A program made the position numbers and the translations under genes. A stretch of 64,000 bases of DNA from Bacteroidota bacterium (lineage in GTDB: Bacteria; Bacteroidota; Ignavibacteria; Kapaibacteriales; Kapaibacteriaceae): positions 1 to 64,000 of the forward strand of contig JAFDZT010000007.1 of the NCBI GenBank assembly GCA_018266735.1, given 5' to 3'. The notes under the pieces were generated by a model. It did no database searches. It worked only from the letters and a program-made list of their open reading frames with translations, and was not told the origin of the DNA. Shown here one piece after another: positions 2,164 to 13,000 of the stretch; the stretch's first letter is position 1, and the number at the start of each line of letters is the position of its first letter.

Positions 2164-2340
2164 TCAATCCTCGCGGCGATCGACGATTCGAACAAGTCGA
2201 TACAGGGCGTCAGGATTGTTCTGATAGTACTGGATCATTTGTGGGTTCAGCGAGATCGAGGGATCGATCGACTGCTGAGTAGATGCGTTTGGATTCGTGT
2301 AGAGACCGAAGTACATCAGGATCGCGATGAGCATGTGCAT
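2164..2340 (-). CDS. Small peptide of 58 aa, 'long' IDRxED family, copy C
   Basis: The ATG at 2338-2340 is preceded by AGAGG eight bases upstream. The product begins MHMLIAILMYFGLYTNP, a short hydrophobic N-terminus that matches the two other long peptides (3226-3411, 3822-3995), and ends in LVRIVDRRED. The centre is polar and variable (QQSIDPSISLNPQMIQYYQNNPDALYR). The hydrophobic stretch is only about 12 residues, too short for a standard transmembrane helix but enough for membrane association. It lies just upstream of the 119-aa copy 2. Coding status rests on the conserved ends in three copies and on the RBS. Function unknown. Confidence 0.75.
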   Translation of the reverse strand: MHMLIAILMYFGLYTNPNASTQQSIDPSISLNPQMIQYYQNNPDALYRLVRIVDRRED

Positions 2341-2636
2341 GGTGTCGCCTCTTGAAAACTGACAGTCGAAGATTCGATGTCGAAGTGGCCGGCAGTTAGT
2401 CCCGCGCTCAACTTCTGATACAAAGTTCGGGCGAATTGGGGGTGGATATCGTTACATCTAGGGGCCTTTTGTTACAGGCCATTTTATGGGGTGGGCACTA
2501 ACTGACTACGTTAAGAATGGCTTATTTGCTTGCTTTACAGTAATTGTACGTCATCTTTAGAGGCACAGCAGACGTCATATTGTTACTTGGTAAAATCCAC
2601 ACCATTTCAGGGAAAACAGCACAAGTCAAGTGGATT
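2341..2636. other. Intergenic region between the two peptide cassettes
   Basis: No gene seen. It separates the 58-aa peptide from the upstream 119-aa gene and is AT-rich. It holds an 11-bp perfect inverted repeat, GTAAAATCCAC at 2590-2600 and GTGGATTTTAC at 2630-2640, whose right arm covers the stop of the 2637-2996 gene. That hairpin may attenuate transcription between the cassettes. I found no clear TAnnTTTG box on the minus strand here. Confidence 0.4.
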
Positions 2637-3004: not shown

Positions 3005-3058
3005 TTAGTTCTCTTCGCCGCGGTCGATGATGTACGGGAGGGTGCGTTGGTTTTTCAT
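3005..3058 (-). CDS. 17-aa peptide MKNQRTLPYIIDRGEEN, copy 1
   Basis: A 17-codon ORF with start ATG at 3056-3058 and stop TAA at 3005-3007. It is one of four copies of MKxxRTLPYIIDRGEEN in the block. AAAGAG lies about seven bases before the start. The stop is eight bases before the start of the 119-aa protein. Arg is CGC, Thr ACC and Leu CTC here, different synonymous choices from other copies, which favours selection on the peptide. Residues 3-4 vary (Asn-Gln). No processing enzyme is recognisable nearby. Confidence 0.8.
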   Translation of the reverse strand: MKNQRTLPYIIDRGEEN

Positions 3059-3121
3059 CTGTGGGCTCTTTCTGTTCAAAGGTTTACAAAGTTTAGTCTG
3101 GGATGATCATCACGTCGAGGC

Positions 3122-3175
3122 TTAGTTCTCTTCGCCGCGGTCGATGATGTACGGAAGTGTTCTGGTGGACTTCAT
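3122..3175 (-). CDS. 17-aa peptide MKSTRTLPYIIDRGEEN, copy 2
   Basis: A 17-codon ORF with start ATG at 3173-3175 and stop TAA at 3122-3124. GGAAAG lies about eight bases upstream of the start. It shares 15 of 17 residues with copy 1, differing at positions 3-4 (Ser-Thr). Arg5 is AGA and Leu7 CTT, both synonymous with other copies. It lies between the 61-aa peptide and copy 1 in transcription order. Confidence 0.8.
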   Translation of the reverse strand: MKSTRTLPYIIDRGEEN

Positions 3176-3225
3176 GTTGGTTCTTTCCAAGGTTGATGTC
3201 AAAAAGGTGGTTCGTCAGGTCAGGA

Positions 3226-3411
3226 TCAGTCTTCTGTACGGTCGATCGTGCGGATCATGATGGAAGGATCGTACGTTGGATCGGTTTGAAGCATCTGATA
3301 GTACGTTGCGGCCGTTGGGTCCGACATGAGAGCCTTTTGCATGTCAACAGTTGTCATGTCTGGGCTGGTGGAGAGACCGAAGTACACGAGCATTGCGAGA
3401 AGGATGTCCAT
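3226..3411 (-). CDS. Small peptide of 61 aa, 'long' IDRxED family, copy B
   Basis: Start ATG at 3409-3411 with AAGG seven bases upstream. The product begins MDILLAMLVYFGLSTSPD, close to copy A (MDLITALLIFFGMASPD) and copy C (MHMLIAILMYFGLYTNP). It has a variable acidic/polar middle with YYQMLQTDPTYDP and ends in IRTIDRTED. The C-terminal IDRxED recalls the IIDRGEEN end of the 17-mers, linking the two size classes. A (GTT)n microsatellite lies just upstream at about 3431-3446. No signal peptidase site is evident, and the hydrophobic N-terminus is short. Function unknown. Confidence 0.8.
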   Translation of the reverse strand: MDILLAMLVYFGLSTSPDMTTVDMQKALMSDPTAATYYQMLQTDPTYDPSIMIRTIDRTED

Positions 3412-3509
3412 TGTGTTGCCTTGTAGGGGAAGTTGTTGTTGTTGTTGAAGTTGGTCGAATGATGTCTGTCAGCTTGTCAGGTGAAGAGTCAGAAAACCGG
3501 TGATCCGGA

Positions 3510-3563
3510 TCAGTTCTCTTCGCCGCGGTCGATGATGTACGGGAGTGTGCGTGCGCTTTTCAT
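3510..3563 (-). CDS. 17-aa peptide MKSARTLPYIIDRGEEN, copy 3
   Basis: Stop TGA at 3510-3512, unlike the TAA of the other copies. Two in-frame ATGs exist, at 3567-3569 and 3561-3563. AAGGA lies seven bases before the inner ATG and only one base before the outer one, so the inner start, giving the same 17-residue length as the other copies, is chosen. Residues 3-4 are Ser-Ala; the rest is invariant. Confidence 0.8.
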   Translation of the reverse strand: MKSARTLPYIIDRGEEN

Positions 3564-3624
3564 CGTCATGTCCTTGAAATTGTTGGGGTTAGTGATTCAT
3601 TTTTTGGGACCAAGGTCTTGAACC

Positions 3625-3678
3625 TTAGTTCTCTTCGCCGCGATCAATGATGTACGGCAGTGTGCGTGTGGTTTTCAT
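3625..3678 (-). CDS. 17-aa peptide MKTTRTLPYIIDRGEEN, copy 4
   Basis: Start ATG at 3676-3678, stop TAA at 3625-3627. A strong ribosome binding site AAGGAG lies nine bases upstream. This copy carries synonymous changes inside the conserved core (Ile11 ATT, Asp12 GAT, Leu7 CTG) while the peptide is unchanged, the best single sign that the product is translated and selected. Residues 3-4 are Thr-Thr. Confidence 0.85.
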   Translation of the reverse strand: MKTTRTLPYIIDRGEEN

Positions 3679-3821: not shown

Positions 3822-3995
3822 TCAATCCTCTCTTCGGTCAATCTGACGCATGAGATCCAATTGGGTAGGATCTTGATAAATCGCTGCTATCACATCTTGA
3901 TTGTTGGCAATCAGCGAGTTGTATAGAGTAGGGTCGCAACTGGAATCTGGGCTCGCCATACCAAAGAAAATCAGAAGTGCTGTGATCAAGTCCAT
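3822..3995 (-). CDS. Small peptide of 57 aa, 'long' IDRxED family, copy A
   Basis: It is the first gene of the leftward block: start ATG at 3993-3995 with AAGG nine bases upstream, stop TGA at 3822-3824. The N-terminus MDLITALLIFFGMASPD matches copies B and C, and the C-terminus is LMRQIDRRED. A single Cys is at residue 20. The middle (PTLYNSLIANNQDVIAAIYQDPTQ) is predicted helical and polar. It is followed by two 17-mers at 3625 and 3510. Between 3679 and 3821 I see no further ORF. Confidence 0.78.
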   Translation of the reverse strand: MDLITALLIFFGMASPDSSCDPTLYNSLIANNQDVIAAIYQDPTQLDLMRQIDRRED

Positions 3996-4165
3996 TTCGG
4001 GGGCCTTTGAGTTGAGTTACACATTTTGTAGCCTTAAGTACACTCTCGTGTCATCTCGGGAGTGTCGCCTTAGGCAAACCAACGTGGCGATTCGAAATTC
4101 TGCTTATCCTGATCATAAATCATTGCAATGAGTCGGGATTTGTTACATGGCATTTAATCTCTTAC

Positions 4166-4173: not shown

Positions 4174-4255
4174 CATTCAAATCGTCGACTGGCTTGATGC
4201 GTCTTCAGAAGGCGCTTTTAGGCCGACTTCATCCGGTTTCATGTTGGAGGGCTGC

Positions 4256-5773
4256 ATGGAATTCATTAGAGAAATCCTACGTGTTGTTACATCTAAGTCA
4301 GACAGTCGAAAAACATTGCCTGAGCTTCACGAGGAGGGTGAAGATCAGCTTTCGGGTAGGTTCCTAAGAGGCGTCCTTGACAATAGGTATTCAAACGATG
4401 ATGAGATCGCTTTAGACTTGTACGGCACTAACAAGTCAGATCAGCGATTTCGAACATTAAAATCAAGATTATCCGATCGACTGTTACACGCACTTCTCTT
4501 TCTACAAATCAAACAACCAGAACACTCAGAGTATCTCACTTACTACTACAAATGCACAAGAAACTTGATTTGCAGTCAAACACTTATGCGATTCGCTTCA
4601 CGTAAAGCAGGGACACAACTTGCAGAGCGAACTTTGACGACCGCTAGAAAGTACCAGTTCACAGATGTGAGTCTGTCGCTTGTGTCTCTTTTGAGGGAAT
4701 CCGCTGGAATAAGTATGCAGAGAAGGAACTTTATCTACTATAACAACCTACTCAAGAAACTAGTTGATCTACTAGCAGCAGAATACCGTTGTGATGAACT
4801 GTACGATTCCTTAAACATGGATCTGGTTTACTCGAGGAAGAAGAAATCTGCATTTCTTAAGCAAACAGCCGAGTACAAACTTGAAATCTATAACTTGATG
4901 CAAACTTTTCAGAGTCATGCTTTGATTTTGGGATATCATCGAATATCTCTTTTTGAAGCGGATGTCACTGGCGACTTTGAACAGTCAATTACGCGGTGTG
5001 ATTTAGCACTCAAGTATCTGAATGCCAACCCGCATCTGTCGCAAAAAGCTAGAATTGGAGAGTTCAGCCTGACGCAGATGCTGAGTTGCCTGTTTCTCAG
5101 AAGGTATCGAGATGCGTTGTCGATGTCAGAGAATTGCATTTCGAGCTTTATTGAGGCCGGTCATAACTGGTACTTAGCGGTAGATGTGTCATTTGCATCT
5201 GCTTTGCTGTGTGGCGAATATGGACAGGCGGAGACATTCATTAATCTTGCCACCTCCCACAAGCGGTTCCCGCAACAGAACGAGATCACGAAGGAGCGTT
5301 GGTTCCTGTACAATGCCTATCTGAATCTGGCGGAAATGCTGGGGTTGAAGGAGCGGACGGACGAGAAGCGGAAGATCGCATTCCGCCTTTCCACCTTCCT
5401 GAATTCCGTGCCGGAGTTCGCCAAGGAGAAGAAGATCTATAACGTGCACATCCTGATCCTGCATGCGGCATTCCTGATCGCCGAGGGGAATTACGACCTG
5501 GCAGAGAAGCGGATCGAGTATCTGCGGGTGTATACGACGCGGTATCTGAAGGAGAAGGACTTCAACCGGACGCGTGCGTTCCTGCGGTTGTTGAGCTCGT
5601 TCCCCCGCCTTGGATTCAATGCACAACTGCTGCGTCGGGATAACACAAAGCTGTTGGAAGAACTCCATGCCACGGCCAACGATCCGATGCCGGCGGAGAC
5701 GAATGAGTTCATTCCGTACGACGTGATCTATGAGGCGCTGTTGAATGTAGTGGCGAAGATTGATGTCGAGTAG
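4256..5773 (+). CDS. Helical TPR-like protein of 505 aa, unknown function
   Basis: An upstream in-frame ATG exists at 4241, but GGAGG five bases before the ATG at 4256 fixes the start (MEFIREILRVV). The product is soluble, almost wholly alpha-helical, and rich in Leu, Arg and Glu, with repeated helical-pair patterns typical of TPR or related superhelices (for example HILILHAAFLIAEGNYDLAEKRIEYLRVYTTRYL). No catalytic motif or DNA-binding domain is seen. It is transcribed away from the small-peptide block. Composition is mosaic: a 60-base line at 4861 has 38% GC while one at 5341 has 60%, the switch lying near 5230-5280. The 5' two thirds thus look replaced or acquired together with the peptide block. 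A peptide-sensing role, by analogy with TPR regulators, is speculation. Confidence 0.75.
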   Translation: MEFIREILRVVTSKSDSRKTLPELHEEGEDQLSGRFLRGVLDNRYSNDDEIALDLYGTNKSDQRFRTLKSRLSDRLLHALLFLQIKQPEHSEYLTYYYKCTRNLICSQTLMRFASRKAGTQLAERTLTTARKYQFTDVSLSLVSLLRESAGISMQRRNFIYYNNLLKKLVDLLAAEYRCDELYDSLNMDLVYSRKKKSAFLKQTAEYKLEIYNLMQTFQSHALILGYHRISLFEADVTGDFEQSITRCDLALKYLNANPHLSQKARIGEFSLTQMLSCLFLRRYRDALSMSENCISSFIEAGHNWYLAVDVSFASALLCGEYGQAETFINLATSHKRFPQQNEITKERWFLYNAYLNLAEMLGLKERTDEKRKIAFRLSTFLNSVPEFAKEKKIYNVHILILHAAFLIAEGNYDLAEKRIEYLRVYTTRYLKEKDFNRTRAFLRLLSSFPRLGFNAQLLRRDNTKLLEELHATANDPMPAETNEFIPYDVIYEALLNVVAKIDVE

Positions 5774-5775
5774 GG

Positions 5776-7659
5776 CTATCCCCTGCGGTCTTCGAGCCAG
5801 TAGGTGTTCATGGGGCCTTTGCCTTTGATATCGAATGAACCGCGTAGTTGAGTGACAAGTGACAAGTGACGAGTGACAAGTGCCTCTTCCAGTTGTACGG
5901 CAAATGCCTCGGAGACGTGCACGCGTCCGGCCTCACCTGTGCTCTCCATACGCGATGCAACGTTCACGGTATCGCCCCACACATCGTACTGCATACGTTC
6001 CTTGCCGATCACGCCGGCTGTGACGGGGCCGCAGTGAATTCCGATACGGAATTCAACTACGTGCGACACTGCGTGGGACACTTCGTGGGAGATGCTGATG
6101 CGAGACATATCCAAGGCACAGTGTGCGGCGGGGATGACGCTGTCGAACGACACACACATGTAGCTGTCGCCGATGGTCTTGATCTTGACGACGTTGTGCT
6201 GCTTGCAGATGGCGTCGCACTGGGTGAAGACGTCGTCGAGGAGGGTGATGACCTCCTGTGATGACATCGTTGACGAGAGTTCCGTGAAGCCTACGATGTC
6301 CAGGAAGATCACCGTTGCATTGTCGAAGTGATCGTTCACCACCTCGCCCCTTGCCACCCTCTCGGCCACATGCTTTGGCAGGGTGGAATGGAGGACGGCC
6401 AAGTGTTTTTGGTGCTCGCGCTGAACGGCATCGATCTCGCGCTGCTGTTCCTGCATGGTCACCTTCAGCGTGGCTTCCTTCCCGTTGACCTCTTCGAGGA
6501 TGCGTGTGAACTCGTTGTTATGTTCGACGTATCCGGCGAGATCATTGCGTTTCAATGCCAGATCGCGTAATGATCGGTGGATCCCCGCTTGCTCTAACGC
6601 AAGTGAGTGCTCTTGCGCGATCCTGAGTGCGGCACCGAGCGTTGCTCTTGCGCCATCGATGTTGCCATGATGCTCTTGGAGCGATGCTCGACTCTCTTCT
6701 CGTGACACGATATCAAGTGGGTCGTCGATCTGCATGGCATCCATCGCATGCAGCTGCACTTCCGCCTCGACGTGCTCCCCCGCCAGGATCAACGTAGAAA
6801 CAATGATGCCGGCGGCGACGGCCACACCTGCACGGTTGCCGAGTTCTTCATAGATGGTGTGTGCACGACGATAGTGCTCCAATGCCAAGGCGTAATTGCC
6901 GGTGTTGCGGTGCAGGCCGCCAATGTTGTTGGTCATGTGTGCCACGCCATTGCGGACGTCGAGCTCGTTGTAGAGAGCCAGCGCACGTTCGTAGTTCTCC
7001 AAGGCCAAGGCAGTGTTGCCCGTTCGATAGTGCACGTTGCCGATCCCGCCGATGGCGTCGGCCATGCCCACGCGTTCACCGAGGTCTTCAAACAATGCAA
7101 GTGCGCGGTGATAGCACTCCAACGCCAACGGCGAGTTGCCGGTGCGAAAATGCACGCCGCCGATATTGCTGGATGCGCCGGCAACGCCGCTGCGGTTGCC
7201 CAGACGTTCGTATTGCTCCAGCGCTCGATGATAGTGCTCCAGCGCCAAGGCGTACCCGCCAGATTCAACATGTACATTGCCAATGTTGATCGTGGTGCGA
7301 ACCACGCCTACAGGGTCACCGAGCTCTTCATAGAGAGCCAGCGCTCGATGACAGTACTCCAATGCTGATGCGATGTTGCCCATTTTCAGATGTTCGCCGC
7401 CGATACTGGCCGTCACGTCGGCCGCGCCAATGATGTCTCCCGATGCATCATACAAGGCCAGCGCTCGAAGGAAGTGTTCCAACGCTGTCGCGTAGTCCTC
7501 ATGAAACCGACATGCCACCCCACGTGCATTGGCTGCTAGTGCGTCGGCCTCAGGCATTCCCAACGCCTCAAGTTCCTCGGCACACTGCTGAAGAGCCGCG
7601 ACATCGCCGATGGATCTTGCATGCTTTGTTGCTGCGTTGAGCTCTTCGAAGGATCTCAT
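5776..7659 (-). CDS. TPR-domain class III adenylate cyclase (copy 1)
   Basis: The start is the ATG at 7657-7659, which forms an ATGA overlap with the upstream cyclase stop. Residues about 45-330 are tandem TPR units (repeated ALALEHYHRAL..YE.LG...G.A....NIG). They are followed by a coiled coil near 385-430 and a class III cyclase domain near 440-620. Metal-binding aspartates are in FLDIVGFT and IGDSYM, KIKTIGD suggests adenylate specificity, and the catalytic Asn/Arg are in DTVNVASRM. Compared with the upstream paralog it has a seven-residue insertion (RHLSLVT) caused by extra copies of a 7-bp repeat at 5849-5882, in frame because three units add 21 bases. It probably makes cAMP in response to a TPR-bound partner. 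Confidence 0.93.
   Translation of the reverse strand: MRSFEELNAATKHARSIGDVAALQQCAEELEALGMPEADALAANARGVACRFHEDYATALEHFLRALALYDASGDIIGAADVTASIGGEHLKMGNIASALEYCHRALALYEELGDPVGVVRTTINIGNVHVESGGYALALEHYHRALEQYERLGNRSGVAGASSNIGGVHFRTGNSPLALECYHRALALFEDLGERVGMADAIGGIGNVHYRTGNTALALENYERALALYNELDVRNGVAHMTNNIGGLHRNTGNYALALEHYRRAHTIYEELGNRAGVAVAAGIIVSTLILAGEHVEAEVQLHAMDAMQIDDPLDIVSREESRASLQEHHGNIDGARATLGAALRIAQEHSLALEQAGIHRSLRDLALKRNDLAGYVEHNNEFTRILEEVNGKEATLKVTMQEQQREIDAVQREHQKHLAVLHSTLPKHVAERVARGEVVNDHFDNATVIFLDIVGFTELSSTMSSQEVITLLDDVFTQCDAICKQHNVVKIKTIGDSYMCVSFDSVIPAAHCALDMSRISISHEVSHAVSHVVEFRIGIHCGPVTAGVIGKERMQYDVWGDTVNVASRMESTGEAGRVHVSEAFAVQLEEALVTRHLSLVTQLRGSFDIKGKGPMNTYWLEDRRG
5849..5882. repeat. 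Heptamer repeat (GTGACAA)n inside a coding region
   Basis: Four consecutive copies of a GTGACAA/GTGACGA heptamer. The paralogous cyclase at 7730 has the single-copy ancestor (AGTGACAAGTG). The extra three units encode RHLSLVT in the cyclase and keep the frame. Confidence 0.85.
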
Positions 7660-9293
7660 GGAGTGCTGTGCTCCAACCAATATGTCTTCATGAGTCCCTT
7701 GCCCTTGATATCGATCGATCCTCGATCGATAGTGACAAGTGCCTCTTCAACATTCAACGCAAACGCTTCGGACACATGCACACGTCCGGCCTCACCCGTG
7801 CTTTCCATCCTCGATGCTACGTTCACCGTGTCTCCCCACACATCATACTGCATGCGTTGGGTGCCGATAACGCCGGCAGTGAGAGGTCCACAGTGCATTC
7901 CGAGGCGGAAGAGCACTGCGTGCGACACGGGGAGAACGCCTTCGGAGTGCGACACTTCGTGGCGTACTTTGATACGCGACATGGCGAGGGCGCAGTGTGC
8001 GGCGTTGATGACGCTGTCGAAGGACACGCACATGTAGCTGTCACCGATGGTCTTGATCTTCGTGACGTTGTGCTCTTCACAGATCGCATCGCATTGCGTA
8101 AAGATGGTGTCGAGCAGCGAGATCACTTCTTGCGACGACATCGCTGACGAGAGCTCCGTGAAGCCGACGATGTCCAAGAAGATGACCGTTGCGTTCTCAT
8201 AGTGATCGTTGACCACCTCGCCACGTGCCACCCTCTCGGCCACATGCTTTGGCAGGGTGGAATGGAGGACGGCGAGATGCTTCTGCACCTCTTTCTCGCG
8301 CTCATCGATCTCGCGCTGCTTGGCCTGCATGGCCATCCTCAGCGTGGCCTCTTTCCCGTTGATCACTTCGGTGATGCGCGTATACTCGTTGTTGTGCTCG
8401 ATGTAGCCGGCGAAGTCGTTCGCTGTTTGACAGAGATCGCGGAGTTCCTTTTGTACCTCGGCTTGCGTCGGGAGGAGCGTGTGTTGCTGAGCGACCGACA
8501 ATGCGTTGACGAGCGTTGCTCTCGCTGCAACGATGTCGCCCTGATGTCGCTGTAACCTGGCGCGACCGAACTCTCGTTGGATCAGGATCTCCGGAGTATC
8601 CATCTGAATGTCATCTAACTTCTGCAACAACGATGCGGCGTCTATATGTTGACCGATCGTCGAGAACACCTCGATCAGATTGCCGATAACAAGTGCTGCA
8701 CTCACACGGTCACCGAGCTCTTCAAAAAGAACGAGCGCTCGCTGAAAGTGCTGTAACGCTGCTTCGTGGTCACCGGTATTGAAATGCACAATGGCGATGT
8801 TGCCATACATGCGGGCAAGTCCACGGGTCGTGCCCAGTTCTCGATAGATCTCCAGGGCCTGATGGTGGTGTGTTAACGCGGCCGCATGATCGCCGATGCG
8901 ATTGTACACGAGACCGATGTTGCCGGTGACCGTCGCCACGCTGTCTTGGTCGTTGAGTTCTGCAAGCATGGCAAGTGCGCGGAGGTAGTACTCCAGTGCC
9001 GCAGGATAGTCGCCGCTACGCATTCGAACGGTGCCAAGTGCGTCTGTGGTCCACGCTACACCCCCTTTGTCACCGAGCTCTTCAAACATTGCGAGCGCGC
9101 GGTGGAGGTGATCAAGCGCCAACGGGTATTCGCCACGGAGACGGCATGCATGCCCTCGTGCATAGCTCGCCAATGCCCTGGCTTCAGGCGTGGACAGGCC
9201 GTCGAGATCGTCGGAGGCTCGGAGAAGCCCCTCGATGTCATTTCTCCGGAGCGCCTCATTGAAACTCGCCTGGATCTCTTCAAAGGTTCGCAT
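7656..9293 (-). CDS. TPR-domain class III adenylate cyclase (copy 2)
   Basis: The start is ATG at 9291-9293 ([19 protein letters not shown]), matching the [19 protein letters not shown] start of its downstream paralog. Residues about 35-225 hold TPR units, fewer than in copy 1. Next come a linker with a coiled coil ([25 protein letters not shown]) and a cyclase domain near 355-540 with [21 protein letters not shown] and [15 protein letters not shown]. All expected metal, adenine and transition-state residues are present. The cyclase halves of the two copies are far more alike than the TPR halves, as expected if the sensor part diverges. It shares an ATGA overlap with copy 1. Probably a cytosolic cAMP synthase. 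Confidence 0.93.
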
Positions 9294-10028: not shown

Positions 10029-13000
10029 TCACTCCTTGAATAGGATGGAAGTACTGGTTGGCTTGCCATCCCTTCTTACCACCATCCAGTAGTATCCCAC
10101 GGCGAGATGGGGATCGATTCTCACAGTCCATGCCGCTGAGCTATGCAGTACGGAACACGGAACCAATGCACCGGTTGCATCGAACACTTGTACGGATGTA
10201 TGATCCTTCGACCACTCATCTGCTGACAAGATCTCCCATTCTCCTGTGCCACGAGGAACAACTTCCAGCTTCGCAGTTACATGAACAGCAGCAGAAGACG
10301 TCACACGATCATCTTGTTCAATCATAATAGGAGGTTGCTCGATTCCAAGATCACAAGCCTCAAAGAATTGTCCGTCCAATCTGCAGATCACGGCTCCGTT
10401 CTGACCACGAAGCGTAATAGTCCCAGCAATTGGTGCGGTTGCGTTCAATAGACCGCAAATGGTAACCAAACCCGATGTTTGATTGGGTGAGATCGAGGTC
10501 GTTACTCCTCCGATCTGAATACTGCCTCCACTAGGGAAGTACATGTTGCACATGTTGAATGCGATGTCGATACAACATTGCGGAGGTGTATATGAGCCGT
10601 CAGGAAGGACGCCGCCCGGAGTAGTTCTCGTAGAAGAGGAAAAGGTAGGCGCAGCACAGGTCATGCATACCGGCAAATCAATGACCTTCTGACAAACGAT
10701 CCTTGGATTAGCTCCGGATTGGTCTGAGAACTTAATGTACAATTGTTTGGGAGGGACGCTAGGTTCAAAACATAGCACATCTGGACTCGTTTGCAGAACA
10801 AACTGCTCCTCGCCATCGTTGATAGACGTCCACGTTACCGGTACTTCGTTCACCAATGTTGTCCCGTTAACCCCATCGATGACGCTCATCGAACTCATGA
10901 CAATGCATCCCTTCTTTCTCTTAAATGTCAGTTCATAGCAGCATTTATCGCTACCGCATTGTTCCTGTGCAATTGTCCGCACACTAACTTGAACTTCGTT
11001 GCAACATCTATTACAGTACTTACTCTGTATCGGCAATTCGCGTTGACATGTGGTGAAGGTAGTCCCATCAGGATTCGCGAATGTCAACTCCCACGTCATA
11101 GTGAATGCGTCAATGGATGGCTGCTGTGGATCTATACACATCGTTGCCACACTGACACTCTTGCCGGGACCAACGTCGTAACTCACCTTTGCTCCCGTGG
11201 ACAGATCAGAACCGGTGCTACTCGATAGAGTGAGGTTTGGATTAAGTGACGATAGAAGTTTGATGCTTACGAGTCTTATGTAGCAGTTCGGACTCTGCGC
11301 CGTGTTGTTAAGCAATATGTTATAACAGCAAGTTGCCGCATCAAATGAGGTCGACATCGTAATCGATGGATTCTCACACGATGTTGAGCAACGCGTAGTC
11401 GTGCCGCAGTCAACAACTTCAATTTCAAAATCCTTGCTGATTGCTGAGCACAACTGCTTCGGCGCGTCGATGACCAGTCGATACTTCTGCTTTCCGACGT
11501 TAGCTGTGCTGATGACAGTTCCCGGAAGTTTCCACTCACGTCCAACTTCTTGGAGACTTTCCTGGTTGTTTGATCCAGTATAGACGCGATACCAGCGAAT
11601 CGGCTCATACTTAGGTATCGTCAAGTCAGGATTCATCGGGTCCTCGCCAGGTGGCCTTGGATCATCGCGCAATTCGTTCGGTCCACCGGGTTGAAATCCA
11701 TCCCCAAAAGTGAGATCTGGCACCGCCGTACCCTGGCAGACCGTCATATTTCCAGGTAACTGAAAAATGACTTGTGTTGGTACTATTCGAATCTCATCAA
11801 ACTCAACTGCAACTATACTCTGAGGTGCATCTGGCACAAGCATCAAATGTGAATAATCAGCTGCAGGTGTAAACAAGATCGTCTTCTTTGGAGGTACAGC
11901 ATTCAATCCATTGTACTCAATTCCAAACCACCTGCGAACTTGGTCGAGTAGACTGAACTGTTGTCCTGATGGCTTTGGGGCAATCATTTGATGCCATGCA
12001 TTGTCCGCGCCGGTTGGAAGTGTTCCTTCGCCGTTCAAGCGATGAGAAACTGATTGGGCGTTGTAATACGATTTAGCCACAACAGGTCCATTCACGGCTA
12101 ACAACCTGTAGCTCATCTGATGCTCTGTAGCAACTGTGTAGTCAGGATCATTGCCATTCGAAGCAGCAGTAAGAACACCATTGCGAACTCGAACTGCATA
12201 GCAAACTTCGTATGTAACTCCCTTCCTGAACTCAAATGGGACCAGTATTGCTTGAGAGCCTCGAAACAACCCCCAACTGCTACTTGCAGGTTTATTGTCC
12301 AGTGAATTTTCCTGGACTGCAGCGATAACATTGTTATGTATTAATCTGACAAAATGTTCTCTCTTATAGGGCATATCAGTTTGACCTTGAGCATCCTGAT
12401 CAGTCTTAATTGAAGCGCTTCCATAGGCCCTATCCCATTTTTCCGTTGTTGCAGCAACACTCTCCTGTGAACGTTGGGTCTCCTGCCGAATAGAAGCATT
12501 TGCGGCAGTCGGTTGTTGAGTAAACGTACCAACATGCCGGTGTTCAAATGTACCATTCTGCAATAGAGTCGGTTTCAGATCTCGACTTACGACAACGATT
12601 GACGTAGACGATACCTTTCTGCTTCGACTGTTAGGCGTACAAATACTAATTGAAAACGTATAGACCCCAGGAAGTGTCGGTATGAATGTAAATTCTTTTG
12701 CTGCTTCGCTTGCCGAACCATACATGTACGGCGCACCACCAATAACTGTAGGGGTAAAACTCTTGTTATCGCACGAGACATATGCTGTTATGCTACAACT
12801 ATTCTTATTGTTATTGTAGTACGTTGAATTGTCTTTAATGGTGATAACATCATTTATCAATGCTTGGCTGTTCTGAGTGTAGACCACTCTATTCGCATTC
12901 AGCAGATCTACTTTTGGAGTTGCGGCTCGCGGTTGAGGATCGGTAAAGTCAGCCATTTTCTCACGTACATACAATAATGACCGGTATGCGTTCACACGAC

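Follow-up and report, generated by a model that had tools for sequence, protein, structure and literature searches.

What are four nearly identical open reading frames (ORFs) of only 17 codons doing side by side in the genome of an uncultured Kapabacteria-type bacterium, and is the peptide their product? We examined them in the window (the whole 64,000-nt stretch of DNA analysed here) and in genomes of the same family, order and phylum.

Four 17-codon genes selected at the peptide level

The four ORFs, here called B1 to B4, lie on the minus strand where the initial annotation had placed them, and their peptides differ, as it had reported, at residues 3-4 alone (MKTT, MKSA, MKST and MKNQ, each followed by RTLPYIIDRGEEN).

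B1: 3625..3678, minus strand; 17-aa peptide MKTTRTLPYIIDRGEEN; ORF with AAGGAG upstream, peptide-level selection
B2: 3510..3563, minus strand; 17-aa peptide MKSARTLPYIIDRGEEN; ORF with AAGGA spaced for the inner ATG, selection
B3: 3122..3175, minus strand; 17-aa peptide MKSTRTLPYIIDRGEEN; ORF with a weak ribosome-binding site (RBS), selection
B4: 3005..3058, minus strand; 17-aa peptide MKNQRTLPYIIDRGEEN; ORF with a weak RBS, selection

Both stop types occur (TAA in three, TGA in one), and the copies carry synonymous changes at Arg5, Thr6, Leu7, Ile11 and Asp12. Over 13 codons the window's copies gave pS = 0.315 and pN = 0.017 (pN/pS ~0.05), and over the last 7 codons comparisons between genomes gave pS = 0.553 and pN = 0.054, in pairs that are not independent of one another. 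With pN far below pS, the earlier claim that the peptide, not the DNA alone, is under selection held, and the four B ORFs are real genes selected at the peptide level. An RBS of its own had been claimed for each ORF, which stood for two: AAGGA(G) is clear at 3625-3678 and at 3510-3563 (in the latter at a distance that suits the inner ATG, as proposed), whereas the copies at 3122-3175 and 3005-3058 have only weak purine stretches. The peptides are polar, acidic at the C-terminus and leaderless. The 64 kb contains 670 ATG-started ORFs of 10-40 aa, and IDRGEEN is the sole C-terminal 7-mer common to at least two of them.

Related peptides occur in relatives. A degenerate PYIIDRGEE pattern matched four times in the own genome and once each in a congeneric species and in a different genus of the family; with a looser pattern and reading of neighbourhoods added, B peptides were found in 10 of the 23 genomes of the family, in ORFs of 17-47 aa. 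They include MRTTRQHPYSIDRGEEN (two copies) and MKTNRQHPYSIDRGEEN in G016, MLTNRQNPYSIDRGEEN (three copies) and MLANRQNPYSIDRGEEN in G019, MNATQNSHFIDRGEEN in G004 and MKRSRKTPYIIDRGEEN in G012, and share a core unit of 13-14 residues, R..PY.IDRGE.N. One B frame in G015 holds two such units, and three in-frame units per ORF occur in G005 (MKTTRNLSPYLIDRGENNRSASPYLIDRGENNRSSTPYLIDRGENN), G011 (MTTNRQNPYIIDRGENNRQNPYIIDRGENNRQNPYIIDRGENN) and G009 (...STLIIDRGENNRESLFIIDRGEGNRNDGYIIDRGEEN). The repeat period in G005 and G011 begins at the Arg that starts the invariant part of the window's 17-mers, so that their variable residues 3-4 fall outside the unit. Threefold in-frame repetition of the unit within one ORF, in three genomes, indicates that the peptide is the product. 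Pattern matches outside the family (G107, G034, G041 and G025) were isolated short frames and not PY.IDRGE.N genes beside R, the receptor-like gene described below. The G011 locus (L130, G011:C137) belongs to a metagenome-assembled genome titled 'Bradyrhizobiaceae bacterium', whose module genes group with the Kapabacteria-type family; the record is probably mislabelled.

Four similar 57-nt DNA repeats could also be a repeated DNA or RNA element with no peptide product. This is already contradicted by the excess of pS over pN, and a degenerate DNA search, which put the earlier refuting condition to the test, returned intact peptides in other species, the three-unit in-frame ORFs among them. There was also no sign of a structured RNA: the four copies folded no better than shuffled sequences (z from -1.1 to +0.9), and Rfam gave no match at them. 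We regard a non-coding repeat as effectively ruled out.

Propeptide-like genes, a divergent TPR-like gene and shared DNA sites

The initial annotation had described an array of four coding ORFs. The ORFs are coding, but the array is not free-standing: it alternates with ~60-aa ORFs that carry an IDR motif at the C-terminus (A). The earlier reading had thus overlooked its context, a putative receptor-propeptide module with operator-like sites. The minus-strand order is A1 B1 B2 A2 B3 B4 C1, followed by A3 C2; R is transcribed divergently from the plus strand.

A1: 3822..3995, minus strand; 57-aa putative propeptide ending in QIDRRED; found by the A family HMM
A2: 3226..3411, minus strand; 61-aa putative propeptide ending in TIDRTED; A family HMM E 1.7e-3 (weak), or 1.6e-14 with a subfamily profile that includes A2
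A3: 2164..2340, minus strand; 58-aa putative propeptide ending in IVDRRED; found by the A family HMM
C1: 2637..2996, minus strand; 118/119-aa protein, likely output gene; conserved family found at these loci only
C2: 1758..2117, minus strand; second C copy of the same conserved family
R: 4256..5773, plus strand; 505-aa TPR-like putative peptide receptor/regulator; 73-member family, AlphaFold, VIA-align
Operator-like site TTTGTTACA: 4139..4147, plus strand; between R and A1; position-conserved in relatives and enriched
Operator-like site TTGTTACA: 4284..4291, plus strand; inside the R coding start; GTT ACA codon usage
Paired operator-like site GTTACA-N14-GTTACA: 2451..2476, plus strand; upstream of A3-C2; sole exact match in the 3.35-Mb genome

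B genes lie next to R and A in other genera too, and G019 reads A B B A B A B C. An iterative HMM search collected 63 A ORFs of 57-79 aa (57-73 aa in the window's subfamily), most of them adjoining R divergently, and 50 loci hold both R and A; no family in Pfam or PHROGs covers A or C. The conserved A N-terminus, M(E/D)xLLAILLYLGxIxSPG, is hydrophobic, and in 62 of the 63 ORFs its first 12 residues contain no K or R, unlike a classical Sec signal. The C-terminal end is mostly IDRxED in the window's subfamily and varies by system elsewhere (VVIDPISR, KVIIGLH, IVISEEPED, VIKNRPENY, IVDRGTGN and others). When short ORFs were ranked by C-terminal likeness to the neighbouring A, tandem A copies came first and B next. 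The last nine A residues are 88% identical between tandem copies of one locus versus 25% between loci, and loci with more similar R tend to have more similar A C-termini (Mantel p 0.0005), a correlation to which shared ancestry contributes. What follows A varies among loci, as expected if a regulatory module has different targets. Several paralogous modules (L135, L136, L137, L138, L140 and L141) have ORFs of ~740-850 aa with signal-like N-termini behind A, one of them cut by a contig end and usually preceded by an ORF of ~140-240 aa; these are candidates for an alternative module output.

The TTGTTACA sites are concentrated at R, A and C. Upstream of 15 family R genes we counted 26 sites, against 6 elsewhere in those loci (2.36 versus 0.056 per kb), typically ~80-115 nt before R and again within its coding start, where a Val-Thr pair is written GTT ACA in 11 of 11 R genes as against 10 of 103 other Val-Thr pairs. 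This positioning suggests that R may bind TTGTTACA. The tandem A copies and their short hydrophobic N-terminus would also suit a small membrane toxin of the toxin-antitoxin type, with B as a decoy or by-product; this we consider very unlikely, as it leaves the conserved C-termini, the B peptides and the DNA sites at C unexplained.

C (118 aa) was found in 7 of the 23 genomes, always near R where the contig permits checking, and at some loci it accompanies R yet A and B are missing; conversely, G005 and G012 have B and lack C, and some R genes of the clade have neither A nor B nearby. We regard C as the likely regulated output of the module. Its AlphaFold model, built from a shallow alignment of sequences from the window and related loci, was weak (pLDDT 69.5), and a GIY-YIG domain, the top match on that model (E 0.09), was discarded as unusable.

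C1 follows the last B directly, with a gap of 11 nt, and the repeated core units within one B ORF resemble multi-core precursors of ribosomally synthesized and modified peptides (RiPPs). B might then be such a precursor, its product modified and perhaps antimicrobial, with C as partner or immunity protein. A scan of ten proteins encoded nearby in L128 and L132 recognised no RiPP enzyme, C is missing from the B-bearing G005 and G012, the core motif reappears at the end of A, and the linkage to a TPR-like protein is fixed; together these differences from RiPPs make this reading improbable. The array places B immediately ahead of A or C, which would also fit leader peptides that attenuate translation of C or A, the act of translating mattering and not the peptide. 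The multi-unit ORFs keep an amino-acid unit and not a stalling site, and RNA folding is unremarkable, and we give attenuation extremely little weight.

Three further features accompany these loci. A SAM riboswitch (RF00162) was matched at 1472-1557 of the window, minus strand, upstream of the array's downstream end, at 45.4 bits, just above the gathering score. At 5776-9293, also on the minus strand, two tandem paralogous ORFs appear to combine TPR-like N-terminal repeats with a C-terminal nucleotide-cyclase-like stretch. Near the module in two genomes (L132:6392-7222 and L128 near 10650-12600) lie a LexA-like repressor (Peptidase_S24 with a helix-turn-helix, L132) and a likely Y-family-polymerase-type ORF.

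The putative receptor and known peptide-receptor systems

A search of the order and phylum yielded 73 full-length R proteins, with up to 15 matches per genome (15 in G029, 10 in G037 and 6 in G031). Paralogous R-A pairs are found throughout the order, and many of the expanded R genes in G029, G037 and G031 each have their own A with a distinct C-terminus. PYIIDRGEEN is identical in G012, though its R is only ~26% identical to that of the window; an unchanged peptide beside so divergent a receptor is unusual for a co-evolving pair. The start of R was placed at the conserved Met at 4256; an annotated-style start at 4241 is also possible.

Pfam, NCBIfam and PHROGs contain no family that covers R, and single members give almost no Pfam TPR match; a profile of 40 R sequences does match designed TPR chains in the PDB. 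The AlphaFold model of R (pLDDT 84.4), computed, like that of C, from a shallow alignment limited to the window and related loci (5 and 8 sequences in the two alignments), is an all-helical TPR-like superhelix. Foldseek returned TPR proteins, none of them strong, and VIA-align placed Rap-Phr* of pLS20 first (Z 18.6, rmsd 4.0 over 275 residues), followed by RapI (Z 17.7), other Rap proteins, NprR (16.9) and AimR (14.8), with LGN (Z 17.6) and KLC1 close behind Rap. LGN and KLC1 are TPR proteins that bind peptides. Since such TPR proteins score almost as high against R as Rap does, pheromone binding does not follow from the fold by itself; the modelled fold supports peptide binding without proving it. 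No library recognised a DNA-binding domain in R. Its N-terminus has three modelled helices (32-41, 48-56 and 63-81) and a conserved basic stretch, RYRTLKSR, which had raised the suspicion of a helix-turn-helix that no tool confirmed.

We compared the module with the RRNPP/RRNPPA systems of Bacillota (Rap-Phr, NprR-NprX, PlcR-PapR, Rgg-SHP, PrgX-PrgQ and AimR-AimP), whose published signature comprises propeptide size, receptor-propeptide adjacency and a TPR fold (PMC10075063). As applied here, this meant a propeptide of 10-100 aa, adjacent genes, a receptor of 250-500 aa with tetratricopeptide repeats, export by Sec, or by PptAB for SHP/PrgQ, and, on re-import, binding of the peptide to the receptor with a change in its activity. 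A (57-79 aa) and B (17-47 aa) both lie within the propeptide range, A stands divergently beside R in 50 loci, and R, at 505 aa, is slightly longer than the 250-500 aa of RRNPP receptors. RRNPP propeptides hold one to several repeated pheromones each (PMC11343458). As in these systems, a short putative propeptide gene directly adjoins a putative receptor gene, here TPR-like, the putative signal sits at the propeptide C-terminus in one to several repeats, C-termini are system-specific, and the R model comes closest to Rap, NprR and AimR. Unlike them, the module occurs in a diderm lineage outside Bacillota, R has no sequence match to known receptors (no RRNPP chain among its PDB sequence matches and no such NCBIfam or Pfam match), the A leader is acidic or neutral without K/R, leaderless B genes are added, and the DNA site is a different one. 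We do not class the module as an RRNPP member: we found no sequence relation between R and the known receptors, the lineage is not part of Bacillota, and A has an atypical leader.

LCP-RopB, in which a very short, unannotated, leaderless ORF adjoins a TPR receptor and targets are mostly divergent from the receptor (PMC10518010), offers a second parallel. Like LCP/SIP, B is very short, leaderless and unannotated and lies beside a TPR-like putative receptor gene; LCPs are mostly hydrophobic and 8-10 residues long, whereas B has 17 polar residues, is multi-copy and is accompanied by leader-bearing A genes. LCP-RopB pairs an ultrasmall hydrophobic ORF with a RopB-clan receptor; B is polar and 17 aa, and R gave no Rgg/RopB family match.

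A possible peptide-signalling module in a diderm lineage

The reading that we favour, with modest confidence, is that a diderm lineage has an RRNPP-like signalling module of propeptide and receptor, in which B supplies extra leaderless copies of the signal. A would be the propeptide: its uncharged, hydrophobic N-terminal segment would serve to cross the membrane, and a spacer would separate this from the signal at the C-terminus; B would comprise leaderless mini-genes for a short peptide signal with the core R..PY.IDRGE.N, adding further copies of a C-terminal signal related to that of A. R would act inside the cell as the receptor, binding the C-terminal peptide with its TPR superhelix and regulating transcription via TTGTTACA sites located at the R gene itself and in front of A/B and C, with C as an output under the module's regulation. 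In this scheme we infer the binding of peptide and of DNA by R, the export and re-import of the peptide and the role of C.

The linkage, the common C-terminal motif and the TPR model would be explained equally well if A and B were purely intracellular anti-regulators or co-factors that bind R in the producing cell, without signalling between cells; A could anchor R at the membrane and B could titrate it. The leaderless B and the atypical A leader favour this, but the multi-unit ORFs suggest cleavage into separate peptides and the system-specific C-termini of many paralogous pairs resemble private signals, and we hold a purely intracellular role to be rather unlikely. Returning to signalling, the broader proposal of an undescribed, lineage-wide family of intracellular-receptor peptide signalling in Bacteroidota-type diderms (Kapabacteria and relatives), independent of or very far from RRNPP, with as many as 15 receptor-like genes in one genome and a two-tier supply from leader-bearing A and leaderless or multi-unit B, is tentative, and we see it as about evenly balanced.

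In the literature searched, the linear-peptide signalling described with cytoplasmic TPR receptors is that of Gram-positive bacteria and of the phages and plasmids that they carry, and we found no description of peptide signalling in Kapabacteria or Bacteroidetes. If the proposal is right, a large, paralogue-rich family in a diderm and largely uncultured lineage raises the question of how linear peptides are exported and re-imported, the loci offer concrete receptor-peptide pairs for in vitro work, such as R with RTLPYIIDRGEEN, and 17-residue genes, expected to escape the usual gene callers, can be core to a regulatory module.

Oligopeptide-type binding proteins are present in 23 of 23 family genomes (5 in the own genome), which speaks to capacity only. 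At five loci of genus g3 (L047, L046, L048, L077 and L008) the gene for such a protein is syntenic with R, with one ORF between them. In another lineage of the phylum, the ORFs divergent from an R homologue combine a hydrophobic N-terminus with GGWGGD units, six per ORF in L184 (G477) and one in L183 (G276). GGWGGD matches outside G276 and G477 were unrelated frames without R. The GGWGGD ORFs beside R are candidates for a second multi-unit precursor type.
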